Assembly (NCBI RefSeq): GCF_023630175.1
Contig: NZ_JALLIN010000040.1
Span: 1 to 64,000, forward strand
Reading direction: 5' to 3'
Origin: Streptomyces cellostaticus
GTDB lineage: Bacteria > Actinomycetota > Actinomycetes > Streptomycetales > Streptomycetaceae
Length of the DNA: 64,000 nt
A program made the translations under genes and the position numbers. The notes under the pieces were generated by a model. The model worked only from the letters and a program-made list of their open reading frames with translations. It was not told where the DNA came from and searched no databases. How positions within the stretch are numbered: position 1 is the first letter of the stretch; the number at the start of each line of letters is the position of its first letter. Below, piece by piece: positions 14,551 through 35,420 of the stretch.

Positions 14551-15216
14551 TCAGAACCGGTGCGCGAGCTTCCTGCGGTCGGTAAACCCGCACACGATCC
14601 AGGTAGCCAGCAGATGCTCCATCTCGTCCAGGGTCCAGACCGCGTCGCCCTCCGGGTCGGCACCCCGGTCGGCGACATCCCGCCCGCGGTAGCCGAGAAG
14701 CAGTTCCAGCAGCAGTGACTGGATTCCCAAAAAAGCGCGTTCGCAGGCCGCCTTGTCCTGAGCTCGCATCGCCCTCGCCGACAGCACCACCCGGGAACGG
14801 TGCAGACACTCCGCGTGGACCGCGTGAATCGCCTCCGCCACCTGCAACGTGACCTTGCGGTGCCCCCGCAGCACGGGGGTGAGACGGCCGTCCGCCAGCC
14901 CCATGATTCCCTGTTCAGGCCAGGCTGCAGACCACCGTTGCAGCGTGCGCTCGCTGACCTGCCCCAGACCCAGCTGACGGGCATCGTCCGGGTGCAGAGC
15001 CTTCAGCTCGGCCACTTTGGCGAGCCGCCGCTCGGCCAGCGTGGTCCGCTCCTGGTCGTACTCGGGCCGGGGCTCACCCTCCTGGGGCCAGTGTCGGCTG
15101 CCGCCGCGGAAGCCGCTCTCGGCCTCCAGGAAGTGGGCCACCCTCAGCCGGAGCCGCTTCTGGTCATCGTCCTTCAGGTCCTCGAGCCGGGCAGGCTGCT
15201 GCTTGTCATCCATCAT
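14551..15216 (-). pseudogene. tnsB: TnsB/Mu-like transposase with internal deletion
   Basis: The N-terminal part has the DNA-binding arrangement of Tn7-type TnsB: 'DARQLGLGQVSERTLQRW' and 'ADGRLTPVLRGHRKVTLQVA'. The sequence then jumps from 'HRSRVVLSARAMRAQ' straight to 'DKAACERAFLGIQSLLLEL' and 'GDAVWTLDEMEHLLATWI', the end of the integrase core. The DDE catalytic middle and the C-terminal domain are lost; about 220 aa remain of an expected 600 or more. The start at 15216 overlaps the tnsA end, as in working Tn7-like operons. Confidence 0.75.
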
Positions 15217-16096
15217 GGCCTCCCGCCGGATAGACCCAGGCCGCATCCCCGAACGGCAGAGTCAGGTCGACGGCCATCCGCCGGCGCCAGAGGAGACGGA
15301 CCGCGTGCGTGCGGGCCACCGCCGGAACATGCGTCTGATCCACCAGCTCCGCGAACCGCCACGGACGCCGGACAACCGCAGCCAGCAGCTGCCGCTCAAG
15401 CCCGAGCGGATCGGCCATCGGACGGCGCCGCACCGACAACGCGTCGATCCCCGCCGGCACCTGCCGGCGCCAGCCGGTCACCACCATGTAGCGTCAGCCC
15501 GCGGCGGCCGCCACCTGCGCTGCCACCGCGAACCGCACCTCGTCCCCCTCGCCGATCAGGCCCCCAGGACGCACGTCCACCAGCCACGAGGCTCCCGCCG
15601 CGAGCACGAGGAAGTCCGTAGTGTGCGAGCCCTTGCCCTCCGAGGAGGAAAACCGCAGACGGAACGGCTGGGACAGCACCTCGTCGAACCCGCCGACGAA
15701 GTCCAGGACCAGCAGCAGCCAGCGTTCGGCCAGACTCTCGAAGCCGTGCTGCCGACGGGTCGTCACCAGGCACTCCAGCCCGAGCCGGGGACGCTGACCG
15801 GTCCGCCAAGAGAACCGCCGAACCGGCACCGGCGCCATCGCTGGCCCCGCCGACAGGTCCTTCACCGGGACGATGACCTCGGACTTCCCGGTCTTCCACG
15901 TCTCCGTCCACGTACGTGTCCATCCCGGCCCCAGATCCAGGCACTCGGTGGCCCACTCGGGCAGTGCGTACGGCAGCGCAAGGTCGTCCAGCCGGCAGGC
16001 ATGGGACCACACCGGCACCGGAATCTCGACGACCTGTACGTCACCCAGGACGAGAGCACACCGCAGGGCACGCGCCGTACGCGGGGAAAGGCCCAA
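15206..16096 (-). pseudogene. tnsA: TnsA-like transposon endonuclease with in-frame TGA
   Basis: Residues ~105-190 resemble the Tn7 TnsA endonuclease domain: 'GFESLAERWLLLVLDFVGG', then 'SQPFRLRF', then 'HTTDFLV' and 'SWLVDVRPGG', the regions that hold the acidic nuclease residues. The gene would run on, in the same frame, to 15206 (296 sense and stop-interrupted codons). A TGA at 15494-15496 interrupts it between 'AQVAAAAG' and 'RYMVVTGWRRQV', where Trp (TGG) is a likely ancestor. It overlaps the downstream tnsB by about 11 bp. TnsA nicks the 5' transposon ends in heteromeric transposases. No tnsC, tnsD or tniQ is visible. Confidence 0.75.
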
Positions 16097-18438: not shown

Positions 18439-18467
18439 GTCCTCCCCGCCGACGCGGGGGTGTTCCG
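18439..18467 (+). CRISPR. Solitary type I-E-like CRISPR repeat
   Basis: A 29-nt unit begins GTCCTCCCCGCCGACGCGGG, ends GTGTTCCG, and has a CCCCGC/GCGGGG dyad. It closely matches the form of the 29-nt type I-E repeats common in Streptomyces. No second copy occurs 61 nt up- or downstream and no cas gene is in the window, so this is a single orphan unit and not an array. Confidence 0.5.
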
Positions 18468-18701
18468 TCTCCGGGGATGCCGTTGTAACCAACTTCAGGG
18501 CAAGTACGTCTGCGCATCGTAAGGTCAGGCACTGACATTGATGCTGATACTCAGGTTCCGGTGGTCGTGGCTCGGGCACTGACTGACGCCCTGCTGGGCT
18601 GTCCTCCCGCTGTTCTGTCCGGCTGCCGGAACCTGTTCTTACGGCTCCGGCCGGGCGGAACATGACCTGATAGGAGCTTGGTCAGAACCCCCCTCAATGT
18701 C

Positions 18702-18727
18702 TGAGCCGAAGCACGGTAGTTGTCACC
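18702..18727 (+). repeat. Left terminal inverted repeat
   Basis: Exact reverse complement of 20845-20870; the outer flank is ATGTC. Confidence 0.9.
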
Positions 18728-19000
18728 GAGGCAGGCTTGTTGTCACCGACTGGTGTGACGTTGACCGACCGGCCAATGGATCACTTGAGGCATCGGGTGG
18801 TGGGGCGGCCATCCCAGCGGCAGCGGCGCGTCGTGCCGTAGTCGCTCATCCACCCGTGTGTGCGCTCCGCCTCCCCGCGCTTGCCGACCTGGACGGGGGC
18901 GGCTACGCCCCTGCGGCGGTGCAGCGGTCCTCCGGCGCGTGGAGCCAGCCGTGAACCTGTGCGCCGCTCATGCACAGGTTGTCTTTCTCGTTGTTCGAGA

Positions 19001-19591
19001 TCAGTCCTCGTCGGCCTGAGTGATGGCTGTGCGCAACAACTTGGCCATCGATCGGCCGGCCACCAGCAGTGGTTCCGGATCACGGGCAGCCCGGCTGAGC
19101 ATGAAAGCCCCCTCCAGCATCATGACCATCGAGTACGCGAGAGACTGCGCCGTCTTCGGTTCGGTCACCCAGCGGCCGAACCACCCTGTCGCCGTGCCGA
19201 CCCACTCCTCGAAAACCTCCGCCGTCGCGATCCGCAACACCTCATTGCTGCTTGCGACCTCCAGGGCCACGGTTCCGATCGGGCACGCGTCGGCATAGTC
19301 GGCCGCTGCAAGGTCGTCCGCGGCCGCTTCGAATGCGTGCACGAGGGACTCCATCGGGTCCGGCGCGCTTTCCAGCAGCGCCAGGACCATTCGGCCGTAC
19401 TCGGTTCCGGACGTGCGGATCATGTCCTCGGCCAGTTGCTGCTTGCCGCCAGGGAAGAAGTGGTAGATCGAGCCGAACGGTGCGTCCGCCTCTGCCGCGA
19501 TCCGCTTCAGGCCGGTGGCCGAGTAGCCGTGTCGGCGGAACAGCACCGTGGCGGCACTCTGGATCCTGGCTCGCGTGTCCGTCTGTCCCAT
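19001..19591 (-). CDS. TetR/AcrR regulator, LmrA/YxaF type
   Basis: This 196-aa repressor-type protein has an N-terminal HTH: 'SAATVLFRRHGYSATGLKRI' then 'FGSIYHFFPGGKQQLAE' (residues ~12-60). The 'YHFFPGGKQQLA' motif is typical of the LmrA/YxaF branch, with a ligand-binding C-terminal domain. The ATG at 19591 has GGAAGG just upstream. It is divergent from the hydrolase, with 61 bp between starts, and probably represses it through the intervening site. Both genes lie inside the 2.17-kb transposed unit, so regulator and target move together. Confidence 0.9.
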   Translation of the reverse strand: MGQTDTRARIQSAATVLFRRHGYSATGLKRIAAEADAPFGSIYHFFPGGKQQLAEDMIRTSGTEYGRMVLALLESAPDPMESLVHAFEAAADDLAAADYADACPIGTVALEVASSNEVLRIATAEVFEEWVGTATGWFGRWVTEPKTAQSLAYSMVMMLEGAFMLSRAARDPEPLLVAGRSMAKLLRTAITQADED

Positions 19592-19652
19592 TGCCTTCCA
19601 CCCCTTTTCCTTTCAAGGTTACAGTAGAACGATCTATCAAATGGGGGTTGGG
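19592..19652. promoter_or_regulatory. Divergent promoter/operator of the TetR-hydrolase pair
   Basis: The short divergent gap contains TAGAACGATCTA (about 19625-19636), an imperfect dyad of the form often bound by LmrA-type TetR proteins. Operator function is inferred from position. Confidence 0.45.
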
Positions 19653-20510
19653 ATGCCGAGAATCGAGTTGTCGTCCGGACCGATCGACTACCAGGACACC
19701 GGTGGTGAGGGGCCTGTGCTCGTGTTCGGCCACGGTCTACCGATGAACGAGACCCAGTGGCGCAAGGTGGTCCCGCTGCTGGACGGATACCGCTGCGTCC
19801 TGCCCACGCTGCCTCTGGGTGGTCACCGTCAGCCGATGAACCCGGATGCCGACCTGTCCCAGCGCGGTGTCGCCCGGCTCCTGGGCGATTTCATCGAGGG
19901 GCTCGGTGCGGGCCAGGTGACACTCGTGCTCAATGACTGGGGCGGGGGCCAGTTCCTGGTGTCGGAAGGGCAGGATCAGCACATCGCGCGCCTGGTGCTG
20001 GTGACCTGCGAGGCCTTCGACAATTTTCCCCCAGGGCCGGCCAAGGCCATGGCTCAGGTGTGCAGGGTTCCCGGCGGCGTCTGGCTCCTGACACGGCTCA
20101 TGCGCGTTCCCGCCTTCCGTCACAGCCGGGGCGGATACGGCGGGATGAGCCTGCGTGGGGTCCCCGACGAGGTCATGGACGACTGGTTCGCGCCCGCCAC
20201 CCACAGCAGGGCCATCCGCAGAGACTTCGCCAAATTCGCCACCGGGGCACCCGCGCGCAAGACCTTGCTCGCCTGGAGCGAGCGACTGCGTGACTTCGAC
20301 CGCCCGGTACTGGTCGTCTGGGCGACCGAGGACCGGTTGATGCCGCGTGAGCATGGCCCCCGGCTGGCTGGGTTGTACCCGCAGGGCCGGCTGATCGAGA
20401 TCGCCGACTCATCCACCCTCGTCCCCGAGGACCAGCCCGAACGACTCGCCCAAGTACTCACCGACTTCCTGATCGAAACCGGAGCAGAGCCGGTCCGACA
20501 CGTCTCCTGA
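19653..20510 (+). CDS. Alpha/beta hydrolase, haloalkane dehalogenase-like
   Basis: This 285-aa cytosolic hydrolase has the oxyanion motif 'FGHGLPMNETQW' (~30-41) and a nucleophile elbow 'LVLNDWGGGQFLV' with Asp as nucleophile (~95). The acid region 'VWATEDRLMP' is present. At the usual catalytic His position the sequence reads 'IADSSTLVPEDQP', so His is absent; many relatives share this variant and their chemistry is unclear. I chose the ATG at 19653 behind GGGGGTTGGG; an ATG at 19641 is possible. It is the cargo partner of the divergent TetR gene. Confidence 0.85.
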   Translation: MPRIELSSGPIDYQDTGGEGPVLVFGHGLPMNETQWRKVVPLLDGYRCVLPTLPLGGHRQPMNPDADLSQRGVARLLGDFIEGLGAGQVTLVLNDWGGGQFLVSEGQDQHIARLVLVTCEAFDNFPPGPAKAMAQVCRVPGGVWLLTRLMRVPAFRHSRGGYGGMSLRGVPDEVMDDWFAPATHSRAIRRDFAKFATGAPARKTLLAWSERLRDFDRPVLVVWATEDRLMPREHGPRLAGLYPQGRLIEIADSSTLVPEDQPERLAQVLTDFLIETGAEPVRHVS

Positions 20511-20730
20511 GCGCGGGGACGGCAGGTGGGTCCGACAGTCCCTACCGCCGTCCCGCCAGCCGAAGCTGCAAGCCAGGTCGGTGCCGCTTGGCGCCGGGTG
20601 AAGTGGCGCATCGGATCACCCGACAGCACCAGCTCGTGTACGAGGCACTGTACCGAGCCGGACGCCTCGTCCCCACCAGCCCCCCATCAGACCGTCCATC
20701 GGCCCCAGACAGCCCGCAGCTTGCGATCTT

Positions 20731-20806
20731 CGCTACTGGTGACAAGAAGGCTGCCGAACAAGCACTTGTGACAAGCCGTGTGCCTCACTGGTGACAACCA
20801 GCCTGC
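20731..20806 (-). repeat. Subterminal repeat block of the mobile element
   Basis: On the reverse strand three GTCAC-centred units recur at about 25-30-nt spacing. The block is clearly similar to 32911-32984, with the same order and spacing, so a relative of this element once inserted there. Confidence 0.7.
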
Positions 20807-20844
20807 TTCGCCCGGTCACATTCACCAGCTCAACCGGCTCTGCG

Positions 20845-20870
20845 GGTGACAACTACCGTGCTTCGGCTCA
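20845..20870 (-). repeat. Right terminal inverted repeat
   Basis: Exact inverted copy of 18702-18727; the outer flank is ATGTC. Confidence 0.9.
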
Positions 20871-20928
20871 ATGTCCTGTCTGCGCCACCCGGCCGGTGCC
20901 CACCTCCGGTTGGGAAGGCATCATCAGC

Positions 20929-21810
20929 ATGGCATCAGAGGCTGCGCAGGACATCGGCGACCAGGACGTGTTCGGCGGGGTCGACTCCCATGCCGACACC
21001 GTCCACGTCGCGGTCATAGGCGACAACGGCGGCCACCTCGCAGACGCAGAGTTCACCACCACCGCAGCCGGATACGCCGCGGCCCTGGCCTTCCTGGATG
21101 CCCACGGCCACGTGATCGCGATCGGGGTGGAAGGTACTTCCTCCTACGGTGCCGGCTTCACCCGCGCCGCCCGCTCACACGGGCACACGGTCGTCGAGGC
21201 CAACCGGCCCGACCGGGCCGAACGCCGACTGATCGGCAAGTCCGACCCCATCGACGCCTACGCCGCCGCCCGCGCCGCTCTGTCCGGACGGGCCTCCAGC
21301 GTGCCCAAGGACGGCACCGTCGCCGGCATACGCGCTCTGCACAACGCCGCCCGCTCCGCCGTCAAGGCACGCACCGCAGCCGTGAACCAGATCACCCGCA
21401 TCCTCTTCACCGCGCCCGAGAGCATCCGCGCAAAATACGGGCAGCTCAAAGGAACGGACCGCACCGACACCCTGGCCCGGCTGCGGTCGGCCGGGGACGC
21501 GGTCCACGCCGCTGTCCTAGCCGCGCTCAAGATCCTCGCCCGACGCGTCAAAGAGCCGACCGGCGAGCACGAGGCCCTGACCAAAGCCCTGGACAGCGAG
21601 GTCACCGTCCAGACCCCGGGTCTGCGGGCCGCCTACGGAGTCGGACCCGACACCGCGGCCCAGCTGCTGATCACGGCGGGACGCAACCCCGAACGCATGC
21701 GGACCGGGGCCTCCTTCGCCGCGCTCTGCGGAGCCGCACCGGTCCCCGCGTCCAGCGGCCGGCCGAACCGGCACCGCCTCTCACGCGGCGGCGACCGGGC
21801 CGCTAACCGC
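20929..21810 (+). pseudogene. IS110-family transposase, C-terminally truncated
   Basis: The DEDD (RuvC-like) domain is intact: Asp in 'GGVDSHADTVHVAVIG', Glu in 'IGVEGTSSYGAG', and Asp pair in 'GKSDPIDAYAAA' (residues ~18-110). The serine-type second domain begins with 'FAALCGAAPVPASSGRP' and 'RHRLSRGGDRAANR', then ends abruptly where 'ALW...' should follow. About 50-60 residues of the C-terminus are replaced by unrelated sequence, so it is very likely inactive. The start is the ATG at 20929 after the IS leader. Confidence 0.85.
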
Positions 21811-21834
21811 CGATCATCTGCTGGTCAGGACGAA

Positions 21835-32789: not shown

Positions 32790-32910
32790 GGCGATTCCTG
32801 CTGCGAGTGCGGTGTGTCGGCTCACGTTACGCGCCGCCACCGACAAAGCAGCCCCGTTGGGCACGCGATAGCTGAGCAGCATCCGAAGGACCGCATCCCA
32901 TGAGGACGAC

Positions 32911-32984
32911 GCAGCGTGGTTGTCACCAACAAGGCACGCGGCTTGTCACAGATGCTCATTCAGCAGCCTTTCTGTCACCAGTCC
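32911..32984 (+). repeat. Second copy of the mobile-element subterminal block
   Basis: Three TGTCAC-centred units at 32920, 32943 and 32971 align in order and spacing with the reverse complement of 20731-20806. It is probably an end of a related element left after decay or imprecise loss. It forms the 3' end of the XRE-cupin gene. Confidence 0.65.
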
Positions 32985-33585
32985 CGCGACCAGCCGCTGG
33001 AGGGGTGCGCGGCCGTAGGCGCTCGCCCTGCGGTCCGAACATGATCAGGTACTCGACGGGACCGCCGGGGCTGGCGTTCGCCACCCCGTGCGGGGTGCGG
33101 GTGTCGAACTCGGCGACGTCCCCGGGGGTCAGGATGAGGTCTTGGTCGCCGAGCGCGAGCCACAGCCGCCCGTACAGGACGCACAGCCACTCGTGGCCGT
33201 CGTGGGAGATCTGACGGGGCCGCGCGGGCGGGTCCTCGAGGGCGGGCAGGATGTGCTTGTGGGCGTGCAGGCCGCCGACGTACCGGGTCAGCGGCAGCAC
33301 CGCCTTGTCGTCGCCGAAGCTCAGCGGCGCCGTAGCGCGCGGCTCGGCCGCGGGGGCGGGTGCGGCGCCGGCCAGCTCGTCCAGGGAGACGCCGTACTCC
33401 TTCGACAGCTGCAGCACTGCCTCCAGGGTGGGCTTGCGCCGGCCGGTCTCGATCCGCGACAGCGTGCTGGTCGAGATGCCGGTCGCACAGCTGACACCGG
33501 CGAGCGTCGCGCCATGCCGCTCGCGCGCGGCCCGCAGCCGGGGCCCCATCGCGGCCAGTGTGCCGTCCACGTCGTCGACTGCCAC
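32956..33585 (-). CDS. XRE-cupin transcriptional regulator
   Basis: This 209-aa regulator has an N-terminal HTH_3 domain ('CATGISTSTLSRIETGRRKP', residues ~30-65) and a C-terminal cupin ('HDGHEWLCVLYGRLWLALGD', 'FDTRTPHGVANA', ~110-190). It probably senses a small ligand in the cupin pocket. The GTG at 33585 follows AAGGAGCGGGAGG. It is divergent from the epoxide hydrolase, a likely target. The last ~10 codons and the stop lie in transposon-derived sequence, so the original C-terminus may be lost. Confidence 0.9.
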   Translation of the reverse strand: MAVDDVDGTLAAMGPRLRAARERHGATLAGVSCATGISTSTLSRIETGRRKPTLEAVLQLSKEYGVSLDELAGAAPAPAAEPRATAPLSFGDDKAVLPLTRYVGGLHAHKHILPALEDPPARPRQISHDGHEWLCVLYGRLWLALGDQDLILTPGDVAEFDTRTPHGVANASPGGPVEYLIMFGPQGERLRPRTPPAAGRGTGDRKAAE

Positions 33586-33734
33586 CCTCCCGCTCCTTAC
33601 TTGCCGTGCCGCTCCATCGCCCTGTCCTGCAAGTTTGCCAGAATGGCAAGCCTGGTCGCGTCGGGCGGGTGCCGCGCCCCATGATCGATGGGTAGCCGCC
33701 TCCCTCCCCCCCCCCGCGATCCGAGGAGAAGCCC

Positions 33735-34733
33735 ATGCAGCCCATGCAGCCCGAGCCGACCGCCGAGCTCCGCCACCGCACCGTCGAGGCTCCGGCCGGG
33801 CGCCTGCACCTGGTGGAGCAGGGCATCGGCCCGCTGGTCCTGCTCGTGCACGGCTTCCCCGAGTCCTGGTACTCCTGGCGCCGCCAACTCCCGGCCCTCG
33901 CCGCGGCCGGGTACCGGGCAGTGGCGATCGACGTGCGCGGCTACGGCCGCTCCTCCAAGCCGGAGGCGACCGACGCCTACCGCATGCTCGACCTGGTGGA
34001 GGACAACGTCGCCGTCGTGCGCGCCCTCGGCGAGGAGAACGCGGTGGTCGTCGGCCACGACTGGGGCTCCAACATCGCCGCCACCTCCGCCCTGCTCCAC
34101 CCCGAGGTCTTCCGCGCCGTCGGCCTGCTGAGCGTCCCCTACGCGCCGCCCGGCGGTCCCCGCCCCACCGACATCTTCGGCCAGATCGGCGGCCCCGAGC
34201 AGGAGTTCTACGTCTCCTACTTCCAGAAGCCCGGCCGCGCCGAGGCGGAGATCGAGCCCGACGTCCGGGGCTGGCTCGCGGGCTTCTACACGGCCCTGTC
34301 CGCCGACACCATGCCCGCCCAGGGCGAGCCCGACCCGCACTTCGTCGCCCGCGGCGGCGGCCGGCTGCGCGACCGCTTCCCCACGGGAGTCCTCCCGGCC
34401 TGGCTGAGCGAGGACGACCTCGACGTCTACGCCGGGGAGTTCGAGCGCACAGGGATCACCGGCGCACTCAACCGCTACCGCAACATGGACCGAGACTGGG
34501 AAGACCTCGCCCCGCACCGCGGAGCCCCGATCAAGCAGCCGTCCCTGTTCATCGGCGGCGCCCTGGACGCCTCCACCACCTGGCTGTCCGACGCCATCGA
34601 CACCTACTCCACCACTCTCCCCGGCCTGTCGGCCTCCCACCTCTTGGACGGCTGCGGCCACTGGATCCAGCAGGAGCGCCCTGATGAGGTCAACCGCCTG
34701 CTGACCGACTGGCTTGCCACCCTCCAGGGGTGA
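33735..34733 (+). CDS. Epoxide hydrolase-like alpha/beta hydrolase
   Basis: This 332-aa enzyme has the oxyanion motif 'HGFPESWYSWR' (~38-48), nucleophile Asp in 'VVGHDWGSNIA' (~112) and catalytic His in 'DGCGHWIQQERPDEVN' near the C-terminus. These are hallmarks of soluble epoxide hydrolases, which open epoxides to diols. Start: ATG at 33735 after GAGGAGAAGCCC. It is divergent from the XRE-cupin regulator with 149 bp between starts. There is no export signal. Confidence 0.9.
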   Translation: MQPMQPEPTAELRHRTVEAPAGRLHLVEQGIGPLVLLVHGFPESWYSWRRQLPALAAAGYRAVAIDVRGYGRSSKPEATDAYRMLDLVEDNVAVVRALGEENAVVVGHDWGSNIAATSALLHPEVFRAVGLLSVPYAPPGGPRPTDIFGQIGGPEQEFYVSYFQKPGRAEAEIEPDVRGWLAGFYTALSADTMPAQGEPDPHFVARGGGRLRDRFPTGVLPAWLSEDDLDVYAGEFERTGITGALNRYRNMDRDWEDLAPHRGAPIKQPSLFIGGALDASTTWLSDAIDTYSTTLPGLSASHLLDGCGHWIQQERPDEVNRLLTDWLATLQG

Positions 34734-35420
34734 ACCAGACGGGCTACCTGGGCAGCTTGGCGGTTCGTCCGGAGTCGTCCTGTCGCAATGCAGGTGTCTC
34801 TTGATCTTGTTGGGAGCTGCGGCGTCGCCACCGTGACTGAGACGGCCGGGGTGCGGCGTATCAATCGATCGTGGCTTCTCGATGGACATCGTCCGGGCAG
34901 CAGCGGAGATCCTCACCCTCCCGAGTGACGGAACCGACAGGTGCCGTGAGAATCGAGCCCTCAGCGACAGTCCCTGTCCCGTCTCATTAGGTCTTGCAGA
35001 GACAGGGTCGCTGACCTGCGGGCTGACAGGTTGAGTCGAGACTCAGGGCAGGTGGAACGGGGCGTCTCGGGAGAGCCGTGGACGGAGCCGAGCGCTCGTC
35101 TCATCGATCATGCCGAGGGAGGGGGTCCTGAGCTGGGATTCTCGGTCTGCTTCTGGTCACCGAGCGCCGTACGACCGGGCGCTGGTGCAGGTGGTCCCGC
35201 CGCTACTGAGATTCCTCGCGTGATGTCGCTGGACGGTCTGCCCTGACCTGCCGCCACCAATGGCTGTGGCGCGACACCAGGCGAAGATCATCAGTAACGG
35301 CGGCCCTACCGTCCCGGGCTGACGGAGACCCCGGCGCGAGCTGCCATCATGGGCACGGTGAAGACCCCGCCGGAGCGGGGTCTTCACTGTGCGGTCAGGC
35401 TGGTGACCGTGGTACGGGTG
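34734..35420. other. Intergenic, ends with a terminator
   Basis: No gene is supported on either strand. The only clear structure is the hairpin at 35358-35387. Confidence 0.35.
35358..35387. terminator. Terminator of the secreted-protein gene
   Basis: A perfect 12-bp stem GTGAAGACCCCG / CGGGGTCTTCAC (35358-35369, 35376-35387) with a 6-nt loop lies 33 bp beyond the stop of the reverse-strand gene. Confidence 0.85.

Follow-up and report, generated by a model that had tools for sequence, protein, structure and literature searches.

A transposase-free regulator-hydrolase cassette in Streptomyces cellostaticus carries the ends of a Tn7-like transposon family that often inserts behind tpg

Introduction

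A unit of 2169 bp (18702-20870), bounded by perfect 26-bp inverted ends and flanked by ATGTC on either side, lies in the window, the 64,000-nucleotide stretch of Streptomyces cellostaticus contig NZ_JALLIN010000040.1 analysed here. It contains divergently transcribed genes for a TetR-family regulator and an alpha/beta hydrolase, and its own tns genes are reduced to a tnsA stub with none complete. The locus thus raises the question of where such a unit comes from and what moved it. An initial annotation of the sequence had described a putatively self-regulated cassette of no named kind, presumably driven in trans by an IS21-like transposase. The comparisons presented here make it very probable that the unit arose by deletion from a Tn7-like transposon of actinomycetes, is non-autonomous, and was moved in trans after the loss of its transposase genes.

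Structure and insertion site of the unit

The two arms (18702-18727 and 20845-20870), 26 nt each, are 100% complementary, and the perfect ends and the 5-bp ATGTC duplicates that had been annotated are confirmed (Table 1), as are the iterated TGTCAC motifs within both ends. In the left end, here termed the 2-site end, these motifs begin 20 and 40 bp from the tip; in the right end, the 4-site end, they begin 20, 75, 98 and 127 bp from the tip. The annotation had also stated that the ends delimit exactly the tetR/hydrolase pair; the divergent pair is present, and a remnant of the N-terminus of tnsA lies inside the ends as well. Judged from its sequence, this stub is the trace of a deleted transposase operon and, as the only tns sequence retained, makes the unit a Tn7-like derivative and not a member of that group.

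Table 1. Features of the mobile unit, its insertion site and a second cassette in the window.
Feature	Position	Strand	Evidence or remark
IS110-family element, left part	18527..18701	+	88-94% identity to uninterrupted copies in four genomes
Left ATGTC, copy of the 5-bp target duplication	18697..18701	.	Present once in the empty site of G038 and G019
2-site end	18702..18748	+	Terminal repeat 18702-18727; profile of 2-site ends
TetR-family regulator, 196 aa, cargo	19001..19591	-	Pfam PF00440, PF21993
Alpha/beta hydrolase, 285 aa, cargo	19653..20510	+	Pfam PF00561, PF12697
tnsA N-terminus remnant	20563..20770	-	tblastn with TnsA of L051: 49% over 67 aa plus 9 aa
4-site end	20732..20870	-	Terminal repeat 20845-20870; profile of 4-site ends
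Right ATGTC, copy of the target duplication	20871..20875	.	
IS110-family element, right part, with IS110-type transposase gene	20871..21812	+	
Second, worn cassette of the same family	32900..34764	+	90% identical over 1869 bp to the intact L049 cassette
XRE-cupin regulator of the second cassette	32956-33585	-	
Alpha/beta hydrolase of the second cassette	33735-34733	+	

When up to three mismatches are allowed, the 26-mer occurs in the genome of the window (7.14 Mb in 141 contigs) as this one pair and nowhere else, and a reversed control pattern of the 26-mer gave 0 matches in every one of the 295 genus genomes searched; the end pair is therefore not a product of chance. The stretch between the 2-site end and tetR (18757-18916) has matches in plasmids at positions that carry the annotation IS5 family transposase, and a Pfam search of it returned no domain.

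The unit interrupts an IS110-family element. A query made of the joined flanks matched 5 of 120 genomes and spans the junction in four of them (G038, G019, G069 and G062), the fifth being the window's own genome, matched in two pieces. The empty site in G038 and G019 reads CTCAATGTCCTGTC, with one ATGTC, and insertion of the unit into the IS110-family element would have generated the 5-bp duplication.

Full Tn7-like elements with the same ends

Elements that share these ends encode a complete set of Tn7-like proteins. One of the first 20 regions compared that have inverted end pairs, the 7037-bp contig NZ_AGBF01000267.1 of S. zinciresistens K42 (L051, also listed as L264), encodes a TnsA-like protein, a TnsB-like protein (rve), a TnsC/TniB-like AAA protein and TniQ. 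An 8119-bp element on a plasmid of S. nojiriensis NBC_00471 (L111; NZ_CP107888.1), flanked by the duplication GTCGA, carries TnsA-TnsB-AAA-TniQ together with NUDIX and GNAT cargo. All four tns genes are likewise found in a 7679-bp contig of Streptomyces sp. A012304 that is bounded by the tips (L235). Because two other contigs of A012304 (L217 and L247) end shortly inside the 2-site end, this assembly appears to hold several copies of the element, and Streptomyces sp. AV19 likewise seems to have more than one copy.

In L051 and L111, Pfam places TnsA-like, rve, AAA_22/TniB and TniQ domains in one operon, the rve matches of both elements and the TnsA match of L111 lying below the curated cutoff. 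TnsB of L111 matches solved TnsB chains at an E value of 3e-9, TnsC found no match among solved structures, and the TniQ profile gave weak matches to solved structures, the best being TnsD (E 0.026); the predicted structure of TniQ has a mean pLDDT of 38, too low for use. The layout of the full relatives is 4-site end, tnsA, tnsB, tnsC, tniQ, cargo and 2-site end, with the 4-site end adjoining tnsA in L051, L111 and L235. Cas effector genes, which a CRISPR-associated transposon would contain, were absent from the L051 ORFs examined and from the genes annotated in L111.

The asymmetry of the ends recurs across the family. In an initial comparison of 21 elements, TGTCAC-type motifs lie at about 20, 75, 98 and 127 bp in one end and about 20 and 40 bp in the other; strict motifs are found at all four positions of the 4-site end in 11 of the 21 and at both positions of the 2-site end in 18, at least one strict motif of the 4-site end being missing or shifted in the other 10. 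The repeated motifs, with their conserved spacing and unequal distribution, are putative TnsB sites to which TnsB would bind. Tn7 tips begin TGTGGG, whereas the tips of this family read TGAGCC. Among further TnsB-like loci with 70-94% DNA identity to L051, a weak 4-site end was found at 2 of 20 and none at 18 of 20, the latter including the closest, a 455-bp fragment in G003 that is 94% identical. The link between TnsB lineage and end type has few full elements behind it, a point against the deletion-derivative reading.

Insertion downstream of tpg

The 3' end of one gene often faces the 2-site end, across elements with unrelated cargo. All five products compared from beside 2-site ends (5/5) match the telomere_Tpg model (NCBIfam NF047541) above cutoff, with E values from 7e-52 to 2e-87. 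Tpg is the terminal protein of linear Streptomyces replicons according to the text available for PMC3572947. A profile built from five proteins beside such elements, themselves within the count that follows, located a Tpg C-terminus no more than 60 bp away from 49 of the 116 distinct 2-site tips outside arrays, the distance being 36-42 bp for 46 of these, and from 0 of the 71 distinct 4-site tips outside arrays, which served as the control for the same profile (all sets, among the matches listed). Tips were counted as distinct by their outer 40 bases, and some of these insertions may share descent. By content, 13 of the 23 clusters tallied have at least one member at tpg.

The family therefore often inserts just behind tpg, a preferred site at a fixed distance, unlike the copy in the window. 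TniQ would recognise the 3' end of tpg and direct the element to a point about 36-42 bp beyond it, the 2-site end being turned towards tpg. Thirteen element-element junctions, with 4-10 bp between the elements, were found; 12 run head to tail, the pattern that serial insertion at one site would give, and one has facing 2-site tips (L129).

A methyltransferase gene in L126 (7684-8499) ends in the last part of tpg just before the 2-site end, forming a fusion. Repeats of the GACTGAGCG type lie outside the 4-site end in L034, L036, L040, L046, L047, L115, L130 and L186, and are perhaps the native region downstream of these tpg genes, or the end of another element.

The sites away from tpg bear on how the family selects its targets. 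No tpg match lies within 60 bp of 67 of the 116 distinct non-array 2-site tips, among the matches listed. A site matrix trained on the positive sites, with p values from 4000 random places in the fetched loci, was applied to the 27 first-set sites without a tpg match, including the window, and detected a tpg-like 3' end at 38-45 bp in four of them (L049, L050, L122 and L184; p <= 0.001), that of L050 sitting behind a GH16-CBM6 gene (p 0.001). No tpg-like sequence was seen at the insertion site in the window (p 0.48). These figures would fit a variant of the deletion-derivative explanation with two targeting pathways, in which TniQ leads to tpg and another factor, or none, acts elsewhere, as in the window. 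Such a variant is possible yet doubtful: no second target-selector gene was recognised in L051 or L111, and decayed or rearranged tpg sites could account for part of the rest. Under the simpler form of the deletion-derivative reading, the window copy may represent an off-target event inside the IS110-family element.

Probable origin by deletion and later movement

Elements at different stages of loss connect the full transposons to the unit. Deletion derivatives that join tnsA or tnsB to tniQ at varied points are seen in L110, L200, L202, L203 and L215, the tail of tniQ alone is retained in L122, L191 and L244, and the tail of the last ORF of L051 is retained in L040. In the window unit, an internal deletion would have removed the tns genes apart from the tnsA stub and left the tetR/hydrolase pair between both ends. 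The pair itself was probably captured from elsewhere, as it also exists without ends in L164-L168, where the sequences are 81-86% identical over the gene pair only. A further locus (L163, in G110) is 91% identical over 18794-20686 with the tnsA stub still present, and is thus a cassette that lost its ends.

The same tetR/hydrolase derivative with the tnsA remnant is found at CCCGG (L048; 2171 bp aligned, 94% to the window) and at GAAGG (L050; 2187 bp aligned, 92%), giving, with ATGTC in the window, three perfect and different duplications in three genomes. One derivative with a tnsA stub at three sites implies movement after transposase loss and lends indirect support to mobilisation in trans. 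Plasmids of Streptomyces sp. Mg1, S. goshikiensis and Streptomyces sp. ADI95-16 carry the cassette too; there it lacks a perfect duplication and is separated by 10 bp from a truncated tns element, whose 4-site end adjoins it.

These three sites are what separates a moving cassette from a dead relic, that is, a full transposon that inserted in the window, lost its tns genes in place and never moved as a cassette. In-place deletion does happen, as a 1046-bp element in S. avidinii occupies the same site, with the same GTCGA duplication, as the 8119-bp element of S. nojiriensis, and the lack of a cognate driver among the 141 contigs of the window's genome would suit a relic as well as count against the preferred explanation. 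The derivative with its stub at ATGTC, CCCGG and GAAGG requires movement after the deletion, leaving the relic improbable and already hard to hold. It is most likely that the cassette was driven in trans, and the shortened unit would have moved by TnsA/TnsB transposition supplied by another element.

An IS21-like driver, as first annotated, is highly unlikely: IS21 elements do have iterated end motifs and a short target duplication, which would fit here too, and TnsB of this family has sub-cutoff similarity to IS21 and IS481 models, but the full elements that share these ends have genes for TnsA, TnsB, TnsC and TniQ, and the stub inside the unit is tnsA. Among the elements found by their ends, no IS21 element was met.

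In other respects the annotation fared better. Its proposed genome search for the 26-bp end gave at least one match in 73 of 295 genus genomes, with inverted pairs enclosing varied cargo, and the intact element with the same ends that it sought exists as a Tn7-like transposon (L051, L111 and L235), not as an IS21. A mobile regulator-enzyme cassette without a transposase is borne out by the three sites with their own duplications and by the empty site in other genomes. The annotation had named, as grounds for refuting its reading, the case of ends belonging to a known insertion sequence that had simply lost its transposase, with the cargo fixed elsewhere without them; in part this was found, as the ends are those of a transposon from which the transposase genes have gone, and the pair also occurs without ends. 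Since the loss of the transposase predates the movement of the unit, it is still a mobile cassette.

Related features in the window and its genome

In a second cassette of the family in the window, the 2-site end is missing entirely and the 4-site end lacks its outer part. The window holds two family cassettes, both with a regulator beside an alpha/beta hydrolase. The closest TnsB in the genome, on contig C45 (L056), is 54% identical to that of L051 and belongs to an intact-looking tnsA-tnsB-tnsC operon (L056 8546-13481) directly upstream of a gene that reads as argC. With no TniQ match, no ends of this family and this level of TnsB identity, the operon was rejected as an own-genome driver, and from the sequence of this 141-contig assembly the unit looks stranded at present. 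A decayed tnsA-tnsB pair at 14566-16012 on the negative strand was rejected as a source, being of a different lineage (about 47% to L051) with no such end adjoining.

A lone type I-E-like CRISPR repeat lies at 18439-18467, some 235 bp to the left of the unit. In S. rochei S32 (L193) this repeat is arrayed in 17 copies next to cas genes and a 4-site end, and L125 has three copies of it. CRISPR guidance of insertion was considered and rejected, as nothing links the repeat near the unit or the array in L193 to insertion.

Diversity and distribution of the cassettes

The first set of 45 paired elements falls into 23 content clusters, and 2 of the 45 elements have all tns genes. Because elements were identified from their ends, with partners sought up to 12 kb away on slices no longer than 20 kb (8 kb in the contig scan), long full elements are under-counted. 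A perfect 5-bp duplication flanks 23 of the 44 testable paired elements, those with flanks on both sides, against 0.06 expected from base composition, and is absent from the other 21, among them the three plasmid copies of the window's cassette. These 21, the 10 elements with an incomplete set of strict motifs in the 4-site end and the lack of a tpg-like sequence at the window site count against the deletion-derivative reading. In the contig scan it flanks 15 of 28 pairs among the matches listed, L216, L221, L231 and L264 among those 28 being repeats of earlier pairs; L181 and L182, which repeat L044 and L043, were left out.

The cargo includes TetR with hydrolase, XRE-cupin with alpha/beta hydrolase, an MmyB-like regulator with an SDR, and LysR with an SDR. 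Further cargo comprises an HxlR regulator, TetR with aldo/keto reductase and flavodoxin, a single SDR, Abhydrolase_3, HEAT-repeat, DUF6193 and FG-GAP proteins, and unknowns; the combination of regulator and enzyme is recurrent and not the rule. One cargo gene (L117 7480-8765) matches the aminoglycoside/hydroxyurea phosphotransferase family.

The contig scan yielded at least 80 loci, mostly in Streptomyces. Other genera among the matches listed are Wenjunlia, Actinacidiphila, Embleya, Nonomuraea, Actinomadura, Actinoplanes and Paractinoplanes, and one match listed is on a contig labelled as a Mucilaginibacter MAG. In a plasmid collection the 4-site end occurs in 33 of 72,556 records, namely 29 of Streptomyces, 2 of [Kitasatospora] and 2 of Embleya. 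The chances appear evenly balanced that one Tn7-like machine serves a shared Streptomyces pool of transposase-free cassettes, moved in trans and stacking head to tail 36-42 bp behind tpg.

Comparison with known systems

The earlier statement that no element of this kind has a name was too strong, as mobile insertion cassettes (MICs) are a named kind. In the text available for PMC3913671, MIC231 and other mic elements consist of inverted transposable-element ends around passenger genes, without a transposase and with a target duplication, and their movement in trans is presumed or shown. The window unit likewise shares its ends with autonomous elements (L051, L111 and L235), has passenger genes (tetR and hydrolase) and no intact transposase, and is flanked by ATGTC twice where the empty site has it once. 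MIC231 belongs to IS231, an IS4-type insertion sequence in that text, whereas the parent here is Tn7-like: its ends are asymmetric and bear several motifs, many cargoes make up the pool, and one attachment site is preferred. The window unit is thus a non-autonomous Tn7-like cassette that works like a MIC, with mobilisation most plausibly in trans.

As far as the available parts of PMC8649781 and PMC10293859 describe Tn7-like elements (Tn7, Tn6022 and the actinobacterial clade of Benler 2021), the parents resemble them in TnsA, TnsB, TnsC and TniQ, in repeated motifs at both ends, in the 5-bp duplication and in insertion near the 3' end of a conserved gene. They differ in that the attachment gene of this family is tpg, not glmS or comM, and the window unit differs in having no complete tns gene. 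Benler 2021 calls the actinobacterial Tn7-like clade uncharacterised, and its available text makes no mention of tpg, terminal protein, telomere, Streptomyces or non-autonomous elements. The available text of Faure 2023 does not mention tpg, telomere, terminal protein or non-autonomous elements, and names Streptomyces solely as a reagent source. At the level of titles and abstracts, with most subscription papers outside the scope, no description was found, among the papers listed, of tpg with Tn7 or TnsA, or of non-autonomous Tn7-like elements.

Integron arrays are alike in outcome only, with different small cassettes stacked in line at one site. This family has transposon-type ends with duplications, a difference that makes the likeness one of resemblance and not of membership.

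Biological significance

These results name a likely driver for an orphan mobile cassette and trace its origin to the internal deletion of a cargo-bearing Tn7-like element. They also assign the family an attachment site at tpg, the gene by which linear chromosomes and plasmids of Streptomyces retain their ends, and suggest a system for site-specific insertion into linear replicons. How small regulated gene cassettes near the telomeres of Streptomyces arose thereby becomes testable, and the attachment site tells where more of them should be sought. If the shared pool exists, its small cargoes would be numerous and unrelated, with a regulator and an enzyme often paired, and it would amount to integron-like accretion based on a DDE transposon and linked to the gene responsible for maintaining replicon ends.
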